Of a stretch of 64,000 nucleotides of DNA, positions 42,730 through 49,823 are shown piece after piece. Source of the DNA: Alphaproteobacteria bacterium (GTDB lineage Bacteria; Pseudomonadota; Alphaproteobacteria; Micavibrionales; Micavibrionaceae). Under the pieces are notes generated by a model that was not told the DNA's origin, did no database searches, and saw only the letters and a program-made list of their open reading frames with translations. The first letter of the stretch is position 1, and each line of letters opens with the position of its first letter. Position numbers and translations under genes: made by a program. Where the stretch lies: assembly GCA_030432025.1 (NCBI GenBank), contig JAUIIA010000004.1, forward strand, positions 1-64,000, read 5' to 3'.

Positions 42730-42754
42730 AGGCTGCGTCACCGCAGCCTTTTTT
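42730..42754 (+). terminator. Intrinsic terminator after hsp20-DUF1150
   Basis: Stem AGGCTGCG (42730-42737) and CGCAGCCT (42742-42749) with loop TCAC and a T-run to 42754. It also lies just past the end of convergent ptsN. Confidence 0.85.
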
Positions 42755-43223
42755 ATGCGGCCATTAACCAGCCTTCAGGATCGATCAGCAGAGCGCGGAT
42801 TGCCTCGGCGTCTTTTGCTTCGGACAATTTTTTATGCAGGTCCTCACAACGCAAAAGTCTGGAGATACGGGCTAGACGACGCAAGTGAATAGGACCGTCG
42901 CGTTCCGGGGAGATGACGAGGCAGACTAAATCGACAGGTTCACCGTCAACAGCATCAATATCAATTTGATTTTTCAGCGTTGCCAATATGGCCATGCCTT
43001 TGGTTGGTCCCTGAACCTGGATATGCGGGATAGCAACGCCGCCACCGATACCCGAGCCGGAAACGTCTTCTTTTTTTATAAGAAGGTCGTATAAGGCTTT
43101 TGCAGATACATTGAGGGTTTGCGCTGTTTCTGAAGAGAGGGCTTTCAGAATTTGCGAATATGTTGTCCCGGCAAGTTCCGGAATTATAATTTCAAACTCT
43201 AAATCGTGGCCGTAATTATTCAT
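42753..43223 (-). CDS. ptsN: PTS-Ntr EIIA component
   Basis: Phosphocarrier of the regulatory PTS-Ntr system, 156 residues, with the phospho-accepting His67 in GGGVAIPHIQV and the conserved LVCLVISPERDGPIHLRRLARISRLL. It regulates potassium, nitrogen or carbon responses in relatives. AGGAG (43234-43238) precedes its ATG. It normally follows hpf directly, but a large opposite-strand gene separates them here. Confidence 0.94.
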   Translation of the reverse strand: MNNYGHDLEFEIIIPELAGTTYSQILKALSSETAQTLNVSAKALYDLLIKKEDVSGSGIGGGVAIPHIQVQGPTKGMAILATLKNQIDIDAVDGEPVDLVCLVISPERDGPIHLRRLARISRLLRCEDLHKKLSEAKDAEAIRALLIDPEGWLMAA

Positions 43224-43543: not shown

Positions 43544-43598
43544 AGCTTTGCCATCATAATTTGGGCATAAAAACAAATAAAAAACTGAGGGTGTACAC

Positions 43599-46500
43599 AT
43601 GGCGGGTCCTACGACCGAAGAGGAAGCCAAAGAATATTTAACGGAATTTCTGGCTGCACACGGCACTAAGAGTGCCGCAGAAATCGCCACCCTCGGCGAG
43701 GAAGAAATTCGGAATCTCCAAACAGCATTAGCTTTAACAGATTTATACGTAAACGCCGGCAGGCGCGCCGAAGAGTTCATCGACGGGGATATGGGACCTA
43801 CACCCTCAGAATCCCTTACATGGACCGGTTTGGTGCGTGCTAAAACGCTTTTGGGTGTTGAAGGGGCACCGTCCCATCAGGATATCATTGATGATACGCT
43901 GCAGCTTATTGAGCAAGTAGAAGCGACATTCGGTCGTGATCGCGGACAACTTGCAACCCGTATTCAGCAAAATTTGAATGTTCTTGATGCTGCTGATCTT
44001 TCCGATGGCGGCGAAGACTTCAACATGGGCGTTCAAGAAGTTGATAGGCTCATGGGTGCTGAAGTTGCCAAAGGGCTGGCAGGCTTCTACAGAAAGCACG
44101 GTTTAACACCGACCGAAGGCGGTCGTGACCTTCTTGAGCGCTATTTGCTTGAAGGGCGTGAAGAGTTCAACACGTATTTAGCAACAACAACAGCGGAACC
44201 ACTATCGGCAGAACCACCAGGTGCTTCTGATATTCGTCGTTCCGATTTAGGCGGTCCTTCCGGTTTTCATGCTTCTGGCGGTGAAAACCCGGCTATGGAT
44301 GCTTATGACGGCGTCAATATGGGCCGTTCTTCGAGCCCGCTTAATGTTACGACGATCCAATTTGATGGCGGCTGGACTTATGGACAGGGGCAGTATGCGG
44401 ATAAGCCCTTCTTCGATACCACCAGAATAAATAACTCGGGCACAAGACGCGAACATGACGGGATAGATCTGTATCAGGTTAACGGTCAGGCAAACGCCGA
44501 AATATCCATGGTTGGCGGACCGGGCATTATGGTTCACCGCGGTATGCATAATGGTTACGGGCGTACGGTCATTACCATGACCGATCAGCAAGATTTACCG
44601 GAAGGGGTGCAGATTAATGTAACCCCGAATAACGGTTATAAGGATAATCCGACAATTTCGGGCGAAGTTCGCTCTGTCAGTGTTTTCACATTGAACGGAC
44701 ATTTGAATGCGTACGGCGAAGATATCGGACAGATGAATACGGGTGAAGTTTTGCCAGATGGTACGCCCATCGGGTTGAACGGTGTGAGTTACGGTCCTAA
44801 TGGACGGACATTTTCAAGCTCGCCGGCTCACCTGCATTGGGAAACACATATTCGTTTGGATATGGCCGATGGCTCCACAGTTGTTGTGCCGGTTAATCCG
44901 CAAATATTGTTGGGTGAGGATCTATCCGGTCCTGCTGCCGATTTAACGGATCCGGCCATTTTAGAAAATATTTTGTCCACGTCGCATACCACGATGATGG
45001 GTAGCGAAATCACGAAACATTCTTTGGCGCAGCTTCGCCAGTGGGATGCGGATCTGGATGCTGAGCGTGCAAACCCGACACGTGTAATTGATTTACAAAG
45101 ACGCCGCCAGCGCGATGGTGATGGCGCTCTTCCTAATACTTTTGCGCAGGTCGCGCAGCAGGACTTGACTGCAATTTCAGCCGACCCGACACAGGCCAAG
45201 CAATATATAGATGCTTTCAAAGCGCTTTCCTCCCCGTCACGACAGGAAATTCGCGAAGTACAACACGTGCTGACGGCTATGGGACTTTATGCCACGCACC
45301 CGCATAAATATTACGCAGATGGTCTCATGGGCCCTGTTACGCGTTTGGGTATGCGTATGGCAGAAGAGCTGCTGAATACGGAGAACCCGGAAGATTCATC
45401 CTTCACGGCGTCTGTTATCGAAGATGTCAGATCGCTGATAAATAAATCGACCCTCACACCTGCCGAGACTATGCGTTTGCAGCAGAATTTGAATTATCTG
45501 GATCGTATTGATGATCTCGATGGCGGCAATGATGTTGACCTTAACCCTGATGGCGTCGACGGCTTTTTGGGAGAGAATGTTGCCAAGGCATCTTTGGAAG
45601 CGGCCAGAAAATACGGCATCGACCTTAACCCGAACAGCAATATCGGCCGCGTTTTGCGCCGCGATGGTATCACATATGATGATGTCGCTTCTGATGCGCC
45701 TATTGTTGAGGCTTCAGGAGATTTGAAAACAATTCTGTCATCCAATGTGATGATGACTACGGTGATTGAAGACCTGCAGGATACTTTGAGAGCAGCGGGG
45801 CACAATCCGGGCGGAACCGATGGTAATGCGGGTACGAACACCATTAACGGTACAGATGGCCGTAGCGGCTTAATCGGTGCGTTGAAAGACGATCCATCGT
45901 TACTGACGGATATGAGCGAAGCGGCCCTTGCGATGATCTGGCGAAAGGCATCGCCGCAAAACCGTACATGGTTGAGACAAACATGGGATGAGACATTTCC
46001 TGAAGGTAATGCGCGTGCTGACTGGATTGAGGACCTTACAGCGCCGGGGAATATTGTGGCTTCAGGATCACAGACTTTACTCCGTCCCGACCTGTTTGCG
46101 CATCTTGATGCAGAGAGAACTTTGCCGGACGGCCGTACTGTTCCGGTTCGCTACTTCGTAGAGAAGATTTATGACGAGGTTGAGGAATATAACCGTAACC
46201 TTGGAGAAGGTGAAATTCCTCTGGACGCCAATTTGATTGTTAATCAGCTTTTCCAAGAATCGACAGACTTTGTAAATGGACGCTGGGTTCCTTTCTATCC
46301 GAGCGCGGAAAGTGATGCGGGCGCACAAGGTATTGCGCAGTTCTTACCGGAAACCGGTAGACAGTGGGGTCTCGCAACTGAGGCGGATCGCATGAATCCT
46401 GACAAAGCTATTCCTGCGGCGATTGCCATGATCGGGGACCGTACGCAACGTTATGGTGATCAGAGATTGGCAATGGTTGCATATAATGGTGGCGATGGCG

Positions 46501-46784
46501 CCGTTGACTGGGTTCAAGGCCATCGCGGACCAAATATCGGCATAGACGAATGGATGGAATATGCAGAGCAAGAGCGCGCTTTAAAAGGTGTTGGCGATAG
46601 AAGCTTATGGCGTAACCAAACGTACGAATATATCGAAAAATCACATTCCGATTATTGGACACCTGATCAAATTGCAGAATCGCAACGCTTGCAACAATAT
46701 GCTGGTCTTTCGACGCCGCCTCCATATGGCGAGGATACAAGACTGGCAAACGCAGACGCGGCTTTGACAGCCGCGCCTAGTTAA
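43599..46784 (+). CDS. Putative dual peptidoglycan hydrolase (M23-like plus transglycosylase-like)
   Basis: A 1061-residue protein, not a known named family. An M23-like endopeptidase module (about 250-440) keeps the zinc and catalytic residues: His286 and Asp290 in REHDGIDLY, His368 in NGHLNAYG and the HxH of HLHWE (411-415). A lytic-transglycosylase-like module (about 870-1000) has the catalytic-type Glu887 in QLFQES, GAQGIAQFLPET and VAYNGG. A two-part region is duplicated: IRNLQTAL...GDMGP (37-66) with IREVQHVL...GLMGP (551-579), and RIQQNLN...LMGAEVAK (121-158) with RLQQNLN...FLGENVAK (626-663). These resemble peptidoglycan-binding repeats. No Sec signal peptide or membrane segment is visible, so the export route is unknown. 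It interrupts the hpf-ptsN pair on the opposite strand. Confidence 0.75.
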   Translation: MAGPTTEEEAKEYLTEFLAAHGTKSAAEIATLGEEEIRNLQTALALTDLYVNAGRRAEEFIDGDMGPTPSESLTWTGLVRAKTLLGVEGAPSHQDIIDDTLQLIEQVEATFGRDRGQLATRIQQNLNVLDAADLSDGGEDFNMGVQEVDRLMGAEVAKGLAGFYRKHGLTPTEGGRDLLERYLLEGREEFNTYLATTTAEPLSAEPPGASDIRRSDLGGPSGFHASGGENPAMDAYDGVNMGRSSSPLNVTTIQFDGGWTYGQGQYADKPFFDTTRINNSGTRREHDGIDLYQVNGQANAEISMVGGPGIMVHRGMHNGYGRTVITMTDQQDLPEGVQINVTPNNGYKDNPTISGEVRSVSVFTLNGHLNAYGEDIGQMNTGEVLPDGTPIGLNGVSYGPNGRTFSSSPAHLHWETHIRLDMADGSTVVVPVNPQILLGEDLSGPAADLTDPAILENILSTSHTTMMGSEITKHSLAQLRQWDADLDAERANPTRVIDLQRRRQRDGDGALPNTFAQVAQQDLTAISADPTQAKQYIDAFKALSSPSRQEIREVQHVLTAMGLYATHPHKYYADGLMGPVTRLGMRMAEELLNTENPEDSSFTASVIEDVRSLINKSTLTPAETMRLQQNLNYLDRIDDLDGGNDVDLNPDGVDGFLGENVAKASLEAARKYGIDLNPNSNIGRVLRRDGITYDDVASDAPIVEASGDLKTILSSNVMMTTVIEDLQDTLRAAGHNPGGTDGNAGTNTINGTDGRSGLIGALKDDPSLLTDMSEAALAMIWRKASPQNRTWLRQTWDETFPEGNARADWIEDLTAPGNIVASGSQTLLRPDLFAHLDAERTLPDGRTVPVRYFVEKIYDEVEEYNRNLGEGEIPLDANLIVNQLFQESTDFVNGRWVPFYPSAESDAGAQGIAQFLPETGRQWGLATEADRMNPDKAIPAAIAMIGDRTQRYGDQRLAMVAYNGGDGAVDWVQGHRGPNIGIDEWMEYAEQERALKGVGDRSLWRNQTYEYIEKSHSDYWTPDQIAESQRLQQYAGLSTPPPYGEDTRLANADAALTAAPS

Positions 46785-46808: not shown

Positions 46809-47408
46809 CTATTTGCCGTGGCCTTCAGGGTCGACCCAACCGATATTTCCATCATCTCTGCGATAGATCATGTTGATGCCGCCGTGGCTGGCATTGCGGA
46901 AAAGCATGGCATTCTCACCTGAGAGATCGAGGCGCATCACAGCGTCGGATACGCTCATCTTGGTGATTTCCTGTGTCATTTCGGCGACGATCAGTGGTTC
47001 ATCACCGGTTTCTTCCTCAGGCGTGTCATCTTGCTCTGGAGCAGCGGCCAGAACATAGTCACGAGCCGTGATGATTTCTTCGTCCGGTGTGTGTTCCATG
47101 CGGTCGTGATGATCGCGCAGTTTCTTTTTGTATCGGCGCATCTGCTTGCCGACTTTTGTCGCTGCGGCTTCAAATGAGGCGTATGGGTCATGATCTGTAG
47201 CATCGGCTACGACCATTACGTTTTTACCGAGCTGGATTAGAATATGTGCGCGGGTTTCCGCTTTTCCGTGTCCTTCTTTTGAGAATGTGACCGTGGCAAA
47301 GGCCGCATGATTGAAATATTTTTCGTTGAGATCTGCTAATTTGTCCTCAACATGGGTGCGCAAGGCATCACCGACATCGATTTGTTTTCCATGAACGTTC
47401 AGTTCCAT
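46809..47408 (-). CDS. hpf: Ribosome hibernation promoting factor, long form
   Basis: A 199-residue long HPF. The N-terminal YfiA-like domain (MELNVHGKQIDVGDALRTHVEDKL, HAAFATVTFSKEG) binds the 30S and the C-terminal domain (MSVSDAVMRLDLSGENAMLFRNASHGGINMIYRRDDGNIGWVDPE) mediates 100S dimer formation. It lies downstream of rpoN with its own extended -10 promoter. Confidence 0.94.
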   Translation of the reverse strand: MELNVHGKQIDVGDALRTHVEDKLADLNEKYFNHAAFATVTFSKEGHGKAETRAHILIQLGKNVMVVADATDHDPYASFEAAATKVGKQMRRYKKKLRDHHDRMEHTPDEEIITARDYVLAAAPEQDDTPEEETGDEPLIVAEMTQEITKMSVSDAVMRLDLSGENAMLFRNASHGGINMIYRRDDGNIGWVDPEGHGK

Positions 47409-49055: not shown

Positions 49056-49823
49056 TTAGAGCTTGAATTCTTCGCCCAGATAAACGCGGCGGACATTTTT
49101 GTCGTTGATGATGTCGTCGGCGGAGCCTTCCATCAAAACCTGTCCGTCATGGAGGATGTACGCACGGTCAACAATACCCAGACAGTCGCGGACATTATGG
49201 TCGGTGATCAATACGCCGATGCCGCGATCTTTCAAATGCGCAATCAGATTACGAATTTCACCGACAGCAATCGGGTCGATACCGGCCAACGGCTCATCGA
49301 GCAGGATAAAGTCGGGACGGGCCGCCAGTGCGCGGGCAATTTCGACGCGGCGGCGTTCACCACCGGACAGTGCAGGTGTGGGTGTACGTCTCAGATGTTC
49401 GACACCGAATTCGCTCAACAAATCCTCGAGCAACAAGTCACGTTCCTCGTCATTCAGATCCTGTGCTTCGATAACGGCGCGGATATTGTCCTCTACGTTC
49501 ATACCACGAAAAATCGAGGATTCTTGAGGCAGATAGCCAATACCCAGACGTGAGCGGCGGTACATCGGCAGGTGCGTGATATCCTGTCCATCAAGCTGGA
49601 TTACTCCGCCGTCGGCAGGGATCAGTCCTGTCGTGATATAGAAGCATGTGGTTTTACCCGCACCGTTGGGGCCGAGCAGGGCCACGGCTTCACCACGTTG
49701 AACAGTGAAGGATACATCCCGCAATACGGGACGTTTTTTGTAGCTTTTGGACAGGTGCTGAACACCCAAGCCCTTGGGTACTTCCTTCAAACGCGGTTTA
49801 TTGGAGCCGAGTGATATATTCAT
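49056..49823 (-). CDS. lptB: LPS export ABC transporter ATPase LptB
   Basis: ATPase that powers LPS extraction by LptFG. The 255-residue protein has Walker A LLGPNGAGKTT, Q-loop LPQESSIFRG, signature LSGGERRRVEIARAL and Walker B FILLDEPLAGIDP. It precedes rpoN and follows lptA. Confidence 0.96.
   Translation of the reverse strand: MNISLGSNKPRLKEVPKGLGVQHLSKSYKKRPVLRDVSFTVQRGEAVALLGPNGAGKTTCFYITTGLIPADGGVIQLDGQDITHLPMYRRSRLGIGYLPQESSIFRGMNVEDNIRAVIEAQDLNDEERDLLLEDLLSEFGVEHLRRTPTPALSGGERRRVEIARALAARPDFILLDEPLAGIDPIAVGEIRNLIAHLKDRGIGVLITDHNVRDCLGIVDRAYILHDGQVLMEGSADDIINDKNVRRVYLGEEFKL

Follow-up and report, generated by a model that had tools for sequence, protein, structure and literature searches.

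A predicted two-domain peptidoglycan hydrolase without a Sec signal, and with an exchanged C-terminal cutting domain, in the Micavibrionaceae

A single gene between hpf and ptsN

The 64,000-nucleotide stretch of contig JAUIIA010000004.1 analysed here (the window) encodes a protein of 1061 amino acids (aa), P0001, that has the domain content of a dual peptidoglycan hydrolase and is referred to below as the lysin (Table 1). The genome of the window is denoted G000, that of a sister species G004, and other related genomes compared carry numbers within G001-G124; L numbers mark stretches fetched from related genomes. The lysin gene is flanked by ptsN (42753-43223) and hpf (46809-47408), both on the opposite strand, with rpoN beyond (Pfam), and it stands alone. 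Of seven genomes of the genus, six yielded hpf, and two of these six, G000 and G004, carry the lysin gene in the interval from hpf to ptsN; an earlier reading of this DNA made from its letters alone (the sequence-only reading) had proposed looking for the same gene in relatives, and the G004 ortholog answers that proposal. In G001, G002, G003 and G006, a ptsN-like open reading frame (ORF) follows hpf by 147-290 bases on the same strand with no separate large ORF between them, the ptsN-like ORFs being motif-tagged in G003 only and recognized by eye in G001, G002 and G006. This comparison shows the lysin gene as a single-gene insertion.

The frame is closed by a TAA at 43578, only six codons upstream of the ATG, so that no signal peptide can have been overlooked, and the start of the G004 copy has the same geometry, with an open frame of 1016 and a protein of 1010 aa. 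Over the first 45 residues the top 12-residue hydropathy window reaches 0.27 (a measure of hydropathy only). Three comparison ORFs from relatives, whose N-termini are signal-like, reach 2.29-2.54; one of them is an SLT match and two are SLT-like by eye. The top 19-residue window anywhere in the protein is 0.91, and it therefore contains no membrane helix. The lysin is made without a Sec signal, and on both points the sequence-only reading stands. Its isoelectric point (pI) is 4.5 and it contains no cysteine. Across residues 1-817, comparison with the G004 copy (pN 0.19, pS 0.70, Ka/Ks about 0.11, with Ks near saturation) indicates that the frame is under purifying selection.

Table 1 Features of the lysin gene and its product, in window coordinates
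Feature	Position	Strand	Basis
P0001, dual peptidoglycan hydrolase without signal, 1061 aa	43599..46784	+	ATG start; ortholog at same place in G004
Shine-Dalgarno-like GAGGG	43587..43591	+	7 nt upstream of ATG, read from sequence
Repeat pair 1, residues 28-175 (sequence-only reading: 37-158)	43680..44123	+	Self-alignment; alignment A2
M23-like endopeptidase domain with large insertions, residues 280-440	44436..44918	+	hhalign, motif columns, model matches
HDGID (residues 286-290), M23 H286 and D290	44454..44468	+	Motif
H368 (NGHLNAY), further M23 histidine	44700..44702	+	Motif; absent from sequence-only reading
HLH, M23 H411 and H413 (within HLHWE 411-415)	44829..44837	+	Motif
Repeat pair 2, residues 531-680 (sequence-only reading: 551-663)	45189..45638	+	Self-alignment, A2, repeat profile
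PG_binding_1-like unit, about residues 713-773	45735..45917	+	Pfam PF01471, third unit
SLT/GH23 lytic transglycosylase domain, residues 830-1034	46086..46700	+	Pfam, AF2, structure match; lysozyme-like domain in its place in G004
E887 (QLFQES), expected catalytic glutamate	46257..46259	+	Invariant column in alignment A1
C-terminal tail, residues 1035-1061	46701..46781	+	Candidate export signal by tail composition

Two predicted cutting domains joined by repeats

The C-terminal cutting domain is recognized by Pfam SLT over residues 899-970 (1.6e-12; 47.5 bits against a curated cut-off of 21.3), and the transglycosylase-like motifs lie where they had been read, with QLFQES at 883-888, GAQGIAQF at 908-915 and AYNGG at 961-965. 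The Glu, Gln, Tyr and Asn motif columns of the domain are invariant in alignment A1, and we take E887 to be catalytic, as in the GH23 family. The full-length AlphaFold2 (AF2) model has a mean predicted local distance difference test (pLDDT) score of 53.8, with the M23 region and the repeats at low confidence, and its pLDDT blocks over residues 831-1000 reach 78-96. Foldseek matched this region to Pseudomonas Slt (E 8.2e-5) with a low TM score because most of the full-length model is unfolded, while VIA comparison with MltF gave Z 13.8 and a root-mean-square deviation (rmsd) of 3.1 over 160 aligned residues. Residues 830-1034 form a domain of SLT/GH23 fold that should cut glycan strands. In sequence, the domain also resembles phage internal virion proteins and phage lysins, with phrog_342 among its PHROGs matches.

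The second putative cutting domain, the M23-like region, emerged only via profile-profile comparison and structure. Its HDGID and HLHWE motifs are confirmed and, with the addition of H368, the M23 ligand set is complete and in order (H286, D290, H368, H411 and H413; HxxxD, H, HxH); these residues and E415 form invariant columns of an 18-row alignment. By hhalign, the region matched 25 M23 domains of related genomes (24 of 30 M23 loci retained, plus one more) with E 4e-4 and a probability of 34%, compared with E 0.31 for a reversed-profile control. For a model built on the 18-row alignment (predicted TM score 0.63), M23 structures rank first in Foldseek (1.6e-5), and VIA comparison with the LytM domain of DipM gave Z 12.1, rmsd 2.6 and 134 aligned residues. 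These alignment-guided results support a LytM/M23 fold, and the domain should cut peptidoglycan peptides. A sequence search of viral contigs gave no match to the region. Profile and structure searches had been set as a check by the sequence-only reading, and they uphold its assignment of two peptidoglycan hydrolase domains, the SLT domain by Pfam and fold, and the M23 domain, which Pfam misses, by ligand set and model.

The two-part region that had been read as present twice aligns with itself at a local score of 153 (residues 2-169 against about 528-674), compared with 34 ± 5.5 (maximum 57) when residues 1-250 were aligned to 300 shuffled versions of residues 516-720, which places the duplication far above chance. 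Its description as binding repeats is not supported: a profile of the repeats found no convincing match in the PDB (best E 0.14), and Pfam PG_binding_1 is absent from both duplicated pairs. The sole match, at residues 723-748, lies in a third unit that scores 17.4 bits in the lysin, short of the PF01471 cut-off of 23, whereas the unit of the G004 ortholog passes it with 24.1 bits. Matches to the repeat profile, some of them weak, occur in 8 of 104 genomes of the family; the repeats are joined to a CHAP domain in G003 (Pfam 4.6e-7) and, in G013, to an SLT-like domain scoring 20.0 bits, just under the cut-off of 21.3. The G003 protein (361 aa; L047:8536-9621) is encoded antisense inside an apparent nuo operon.

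The C-terminus is exchanged between two species

Residues 1-817 share 71% identity with the G004 copy, after which identity drops to background. The G004 C-terminus has no Pfam SLT match and instead matches the phrog_90 endolysin (6e-11). BLASTP relates it to hydrolases encoded between sucC and mdh in G029 (5e-22), G027 (1e-19), G016 (2e-12) and G000 itself (1e-6). A four-row profile of such G004-type end domains has lambda lysozyme as its top, weak PDB match (E 0.07), and one of these domains alone found no match in the PDB. The SLT end of the G000 lysin, for its part, is closest to proteins of 495 aa in G011 and 434 aa in G071 (48% and 47%), both encoded between sucC and mdh. Because the C-terminal ends of the G000 and G004 proteins each resemble sucC-mdh hydrolases, both appear to be drawn from one pool. 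The alignment shows the N-terminal 800 residues as an apparent chassis on which the C-terminal cutting domain was exchanged between the two species. Phage relatives of both C-termini include virion parts, namely internal virion proteins, a tape-measure protein, and a baseplate hub and tail lysozyme. No relative was found in a search of genome contigs with the whole protein or in a plasmid search with residues 1-817.

A pool of related hydrolases at the sucC-mdh locus

Seven of the 14 contexts fetched for proteins matching the lysin, a set biased by choice, lie at sucC (G011, G071, G057, G103, G124, G065 and G013); G004 contributed its hpf-ptsN copy, and the others (G091, G087, G095, G031, G115 and G003) lie elsewhere. 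In a set of 20 family genomes picked by sucC alone, with mdh inside the fetched stretch in 17, a hydrolase was recognized at this place in 10. It lies between mdh and sucC in G000, G001, G003, G004, G010, G012, G016, G027 and G029, and near sucC in G009, where mdh falls outside the fetched stretch. The G004 hydrolase at this place was recognized through 61% identity to the G000 protein, and some other matches in the pool are weak (for example, phrog_90 at 1.3e-4 in G000). No hydrolase was recognized among the scanned proteins of G002, G005, G006, G008, G015, G028, G030 and G035, the scan taking in part of each interval's proteins and leaving out G014 and G034. At the same place in 20 further genomes, 14 from other families and six from this one, the picture was mixed.

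The locus between sucC and mdh, or between sucC and sucD, appears to be fast-changing (L209-L228, L036, L037, L041-L044 and L048), and combines hydrolases without Sec signals with large Cys-poor, coiled-coil-like proteins; those adjoining pool hydrolases have coiled-coil-type or sub-threshold matches only. In G000 it holds proteins of 658, 1122 and 393 aa (L209:1025-7789). G016 encodes a signal-less protein combining M23 and lysozyme-like domains (Pfam M23 2.5e-23) beside a protein that is NlpC/P60-like by eye (L227:3440-5029 and L227:6203-7033), the latter with a single, weak PHROGs match of unknown function. In G027, a single contig of 2,458,610 bp, two hydrolase-like proteins lie between mdh and sucC, one with a strong and one with a weak match (L217:4639-6781). 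Two malate-dehydrogenase-like types adjoin the locus in different genomes (the mdh of L209-L228), and G003 has both side by side (L212:24-2187; 43% to one and 81% to the other).

A hydrophobic helix, next to it a G-rich stretch and then a GID-like one, is common to several of the hydrolases near sucC whose catalytic domains are unrelated (L036, L037, L042, L217, L218 and L227). In a leave-one-out search with six hand-picked seeds, this N-terminal module was re-found in G071 (2.8e-12) and G011 (3.8e-9), which are close relatives, and less clearly in G029 (0.016), G027 (0.1) and G103 (2), while the G016 seed was not re-found. The lysin was in the set searched with this weakly supported module and was not listed.

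Cysteine depletion extends across the pool. In a set of 20 related hydrolases to which the lysin belongs, the content is 1.67 Cys per 1000 residues, and 11 proteins have none; 19 of the 20, including all 11 Cys-free ones, are at least 300 aa long. The 23 non-hydrolase proteins of the sucC-mdh intervals are similar, at 1.85 per 1000 with 11 lacking Cys. By comparison, 121 conserved genes taken from the same stretches, a control that still contains hotspot proteins and that, like the other sets, was chosen after the loci had been viewed, have 7.75 per 1000, with 2 of the 72 of at least 300 aa lacking Cys. For 24 of the 30 M23 ORFs, which we take to be exported, the figure is 3.88, and four are without Cys. 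A first control of 122 ORFs, none shorter than 220 aa (10.35 per 1000), included miscalled ORFs and was replaced by the conserved ORFs. The depletion in the hydrolases suggests a destination outside the cytoplasm.

N-terminal hydropathy in the 20 hydrolases is at most 1.75, compared with 2.29-2.54 in the three signal-like ORFs. Internal hydrophobic stretches (19-residue means 1.5-1.6) occur in the proteins of G057, G124, G103 and G031 and in one of G027. The G031 relative (L045:7918-9219, also L005:1498-2799) has a signal-like stretch about 105 residues past its listed start; it may hold an internal signal, and its true start or its export may differ. At the other end of the chain, the A/P/T/S share of the last 30 residues is 0.43 in the 20 hydrolases and 0.25 in conserved controls; of the idea of a tail signal, this composition alone stands.

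Type I secretion is favoured by elimination

Markers of secretion systems were sought in 57 genomes. The type VI secretion system (T6SS) sheath protein VipB was found in none of them, a phage-type contractile sheath in three, none of which is G000, and VirB4 in eight, including G004 and not G000. The HlyD-type adaptor of type I secretion systems (T1SS; TIGR01843) matched in all 57, in 55 over the curated cut-off, with eight matches in G000, three of them listed over the cut-off. Substrates of such systems are often acidic and poor in Cys.

These results favour a T1SS by elimination, which is not proof. The non-Sec export put forward by the sequence-only reading follows if the lysin is exported at all; of the routes it named, type VI is disfavoured and type I is the one favoured. 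As far as the accessible part of its genome report goes, Micavibrio aeruginosavorus ARL-13 has a complete T1SS, a probable type II system and no evidence for type III or type IV systems (PMC3189940). Among the papers listed in literature searches, none dealt with peptidoglycan hydrolases that lack a signal in Micavibrio, a genus that NCBI taxonomy places under Bdellovibrionota. One candidate precedent was set aside: its enzyme, in the portion of the paper available, has a predicted signal peptide (PMC9098779).

A lysin proposed for use outside the cell

The reading we favour, held with about even confidence, is that of a modular, signal-less lysin that is used outside the cell, probably after T1SS export, against the peptidoglycan of another bacterium. 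Its M23 endopeptidase and C-terminal GH23 lytic transglycosylase would make it a two-bond cutter, and the repeats joining the two cutting domains may grip the wall. Export would most likely take a single step, with a T1SS as the probable route, and the lysin would attack another bacterium's peptidoglycan during predation or competition. Activity, export, T1SS route, target and predatory context are all what we infer for this protein.

A number of observations weigh against this reading. For the M23 domain, Pfam lists no match in the lysin at E <= 0.1, neither phmmer nor a two-row profile found M23 in the PDB, the alignment behind the model itself contained M23 rows so that the fold was partly guided, and the region is present in 2 of 104 family genomes. 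Among control proteins of all lengths, 25 of 121 lack Cys, short conserved ones often, and pI across the 20 hydrolases runs from 4.4 to 9.2. A shared tail motif, [LVIM]A.{1,5}P, was rejected, as it occurs in 10 of the 20 hydrolase tails and 19 of 122 control ORFs, and in a mean of 6.0 and a maximum of 11 shuffled tails. For the export route, TIGR01843 matched 13 of 14 control genomes at a loose threshold and one over the cut-off, and HlyD-family proteins serve many substrates. The RTX nonapeptide pattern GGxGxD, common but not universal in T1SS substrates, is absent from the lysin, and none of the seven window neighbours scanned is part of a T1SS, leaving aside an ABC ATPase (49056-49823), in our reading LptB. 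The organism of the window, finally, is only presumed to be a predator; the Micavibrio-like bacteria, its group, count known predators of bacteria among them.

A broader proposal, which we regard as tentative and somewhat doubtful, sees the large Cys-poor, coiled-coil-like proteins and the interchangeable SLT, lysozyme-like, M23 and NlpC/P60-like domains as paired at the fast-changing sucC-mdh locus into the family's dedicated non-Sec arsenal, which would be exported by a shared, undescribed route and serve these epibiotic predators to breach the walls of their prey. The lysin would be its outlying dual-blade member, swapping its C-terminal blade with the pool. The sequence-only reading had taken this gene for a candidate undescribed system; that description is better placed with the family-wide set of such hydrolases than with the one gene.

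It is unlikely that the lysin is instead a domesticated phage-type enzyme, retained in the cytoplasm and active only at lysis of the producer, as a bacteriolytic factor that is released or that aids exit. The missing signal peptide, the single-gene insertion and the likeness of the SLT domain to internal virion proteins and lysins of phages, on which the earlier suggestion of a domesticated phage lysin can still draw, would all suit such an origin. Against it, Pfam found no phage gene among the seven window neighbours scanned (no holin search was made), relatives recur at one chromosomal place in half of the 20 genomes picked by sucC, and Cys depletion points outside the cytoplasm, though phage proteins may also be Cys-poor.

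Quite improbable, in our assessment, is a dedicated and undescribed export or injection apparatus built in part from the large coiled-coil-like proteins of the sucC-mdh locus, with the hpf-ptsN lysin as outlying cargo. Such proteins adjoin the pool hydrolases, are without annotation and share their low Cys content, and the G004 copy draws its C-terminal domain from the sucC-mdh pool; yet no component resembles a known machine, the lysin gene lies on contig C16 and the sucC-mdh locus on C6, and the six-seed search with the N-terminal module, itself weak, found no shared delivery domain. Peptidoglycan hydrolases are also T6SS cargo. That the lysin is an effector of a T6SS, an X-type type IV secretion system (X-T4SS) or a contractile injection system is highly improbable, even with VirB4 in G004 and with such hydrolases described as X-T4SS cargo in the accessible part of one report (PMC6536674), considering the absence from G000 of all three markers sought, the absence of the XVIPCD motif patterns sought from the lysin (no XVIPCD model was searched), and neighbours, hpf and ptsN, that leave no evident immunity-gene partner.

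If the favoured reading of a lysin for use outside the cell is right, it bears on predation. To our knowledge, the means by which Micavibrio and other epibiotic predators open the prey wall are unsettled, and a set of Cys-poor hydrolases that lack Sec signals, have exchangeable cutting domains and recur at one chromosomal place would provide a short list of candidate genes. A two-bond cutter on a chassis with a swappable end may also be useful for the study of lysins.

Comparison with known systems

The lysin has the GH23 fold and motifs in common with MltF, MltD and Slt, which are exported by Sec, and differs in having no signal. With LytM/M23 enzymes such as DipM, LytM and Csd3 it shares ligand residues and predicted fold, although its M23 domain has large insertions, lies under Pfam detection and comes without a Sec signal. 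Phage internal virion proteins likewise carry an SLT domain in a large virion protein (phrog_342, presumably of the T7 gp16 type; match to the T7 ejectosome, 7k5c), whereas the lysin is the product of a single chromosomal gene with M23 domain and repeats added and with no phage gene among its scanned neighbours.

The Xanthomonas type IV effectors (X-Tfe), as described in the available part of PMC6536674, are similarly modular peptidoglycan hydrolases aimed at other cells; the lysin differs in the absence of the XVIPCD motif patterns sought, of VirB4 in its genome and of an evident immunity gene. The hemolysin-type proteins of M. aeruginosavorus ARL-13, a related predator, are also large and have a predicted T1SS exit, according to the portion of PMC3189940 at hand, whereas the lysin has no RTX repeats. 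Lambda lysozyme (1am7/3d3d) provides the top, weak PDB matches (E 0.07) for the domain found in place of SLT in G004, which also occurs in the G000 sucC-mdh hydrolase; unlike lambda lysozyme, the G004 domain is joined to an 800-residue chassis.

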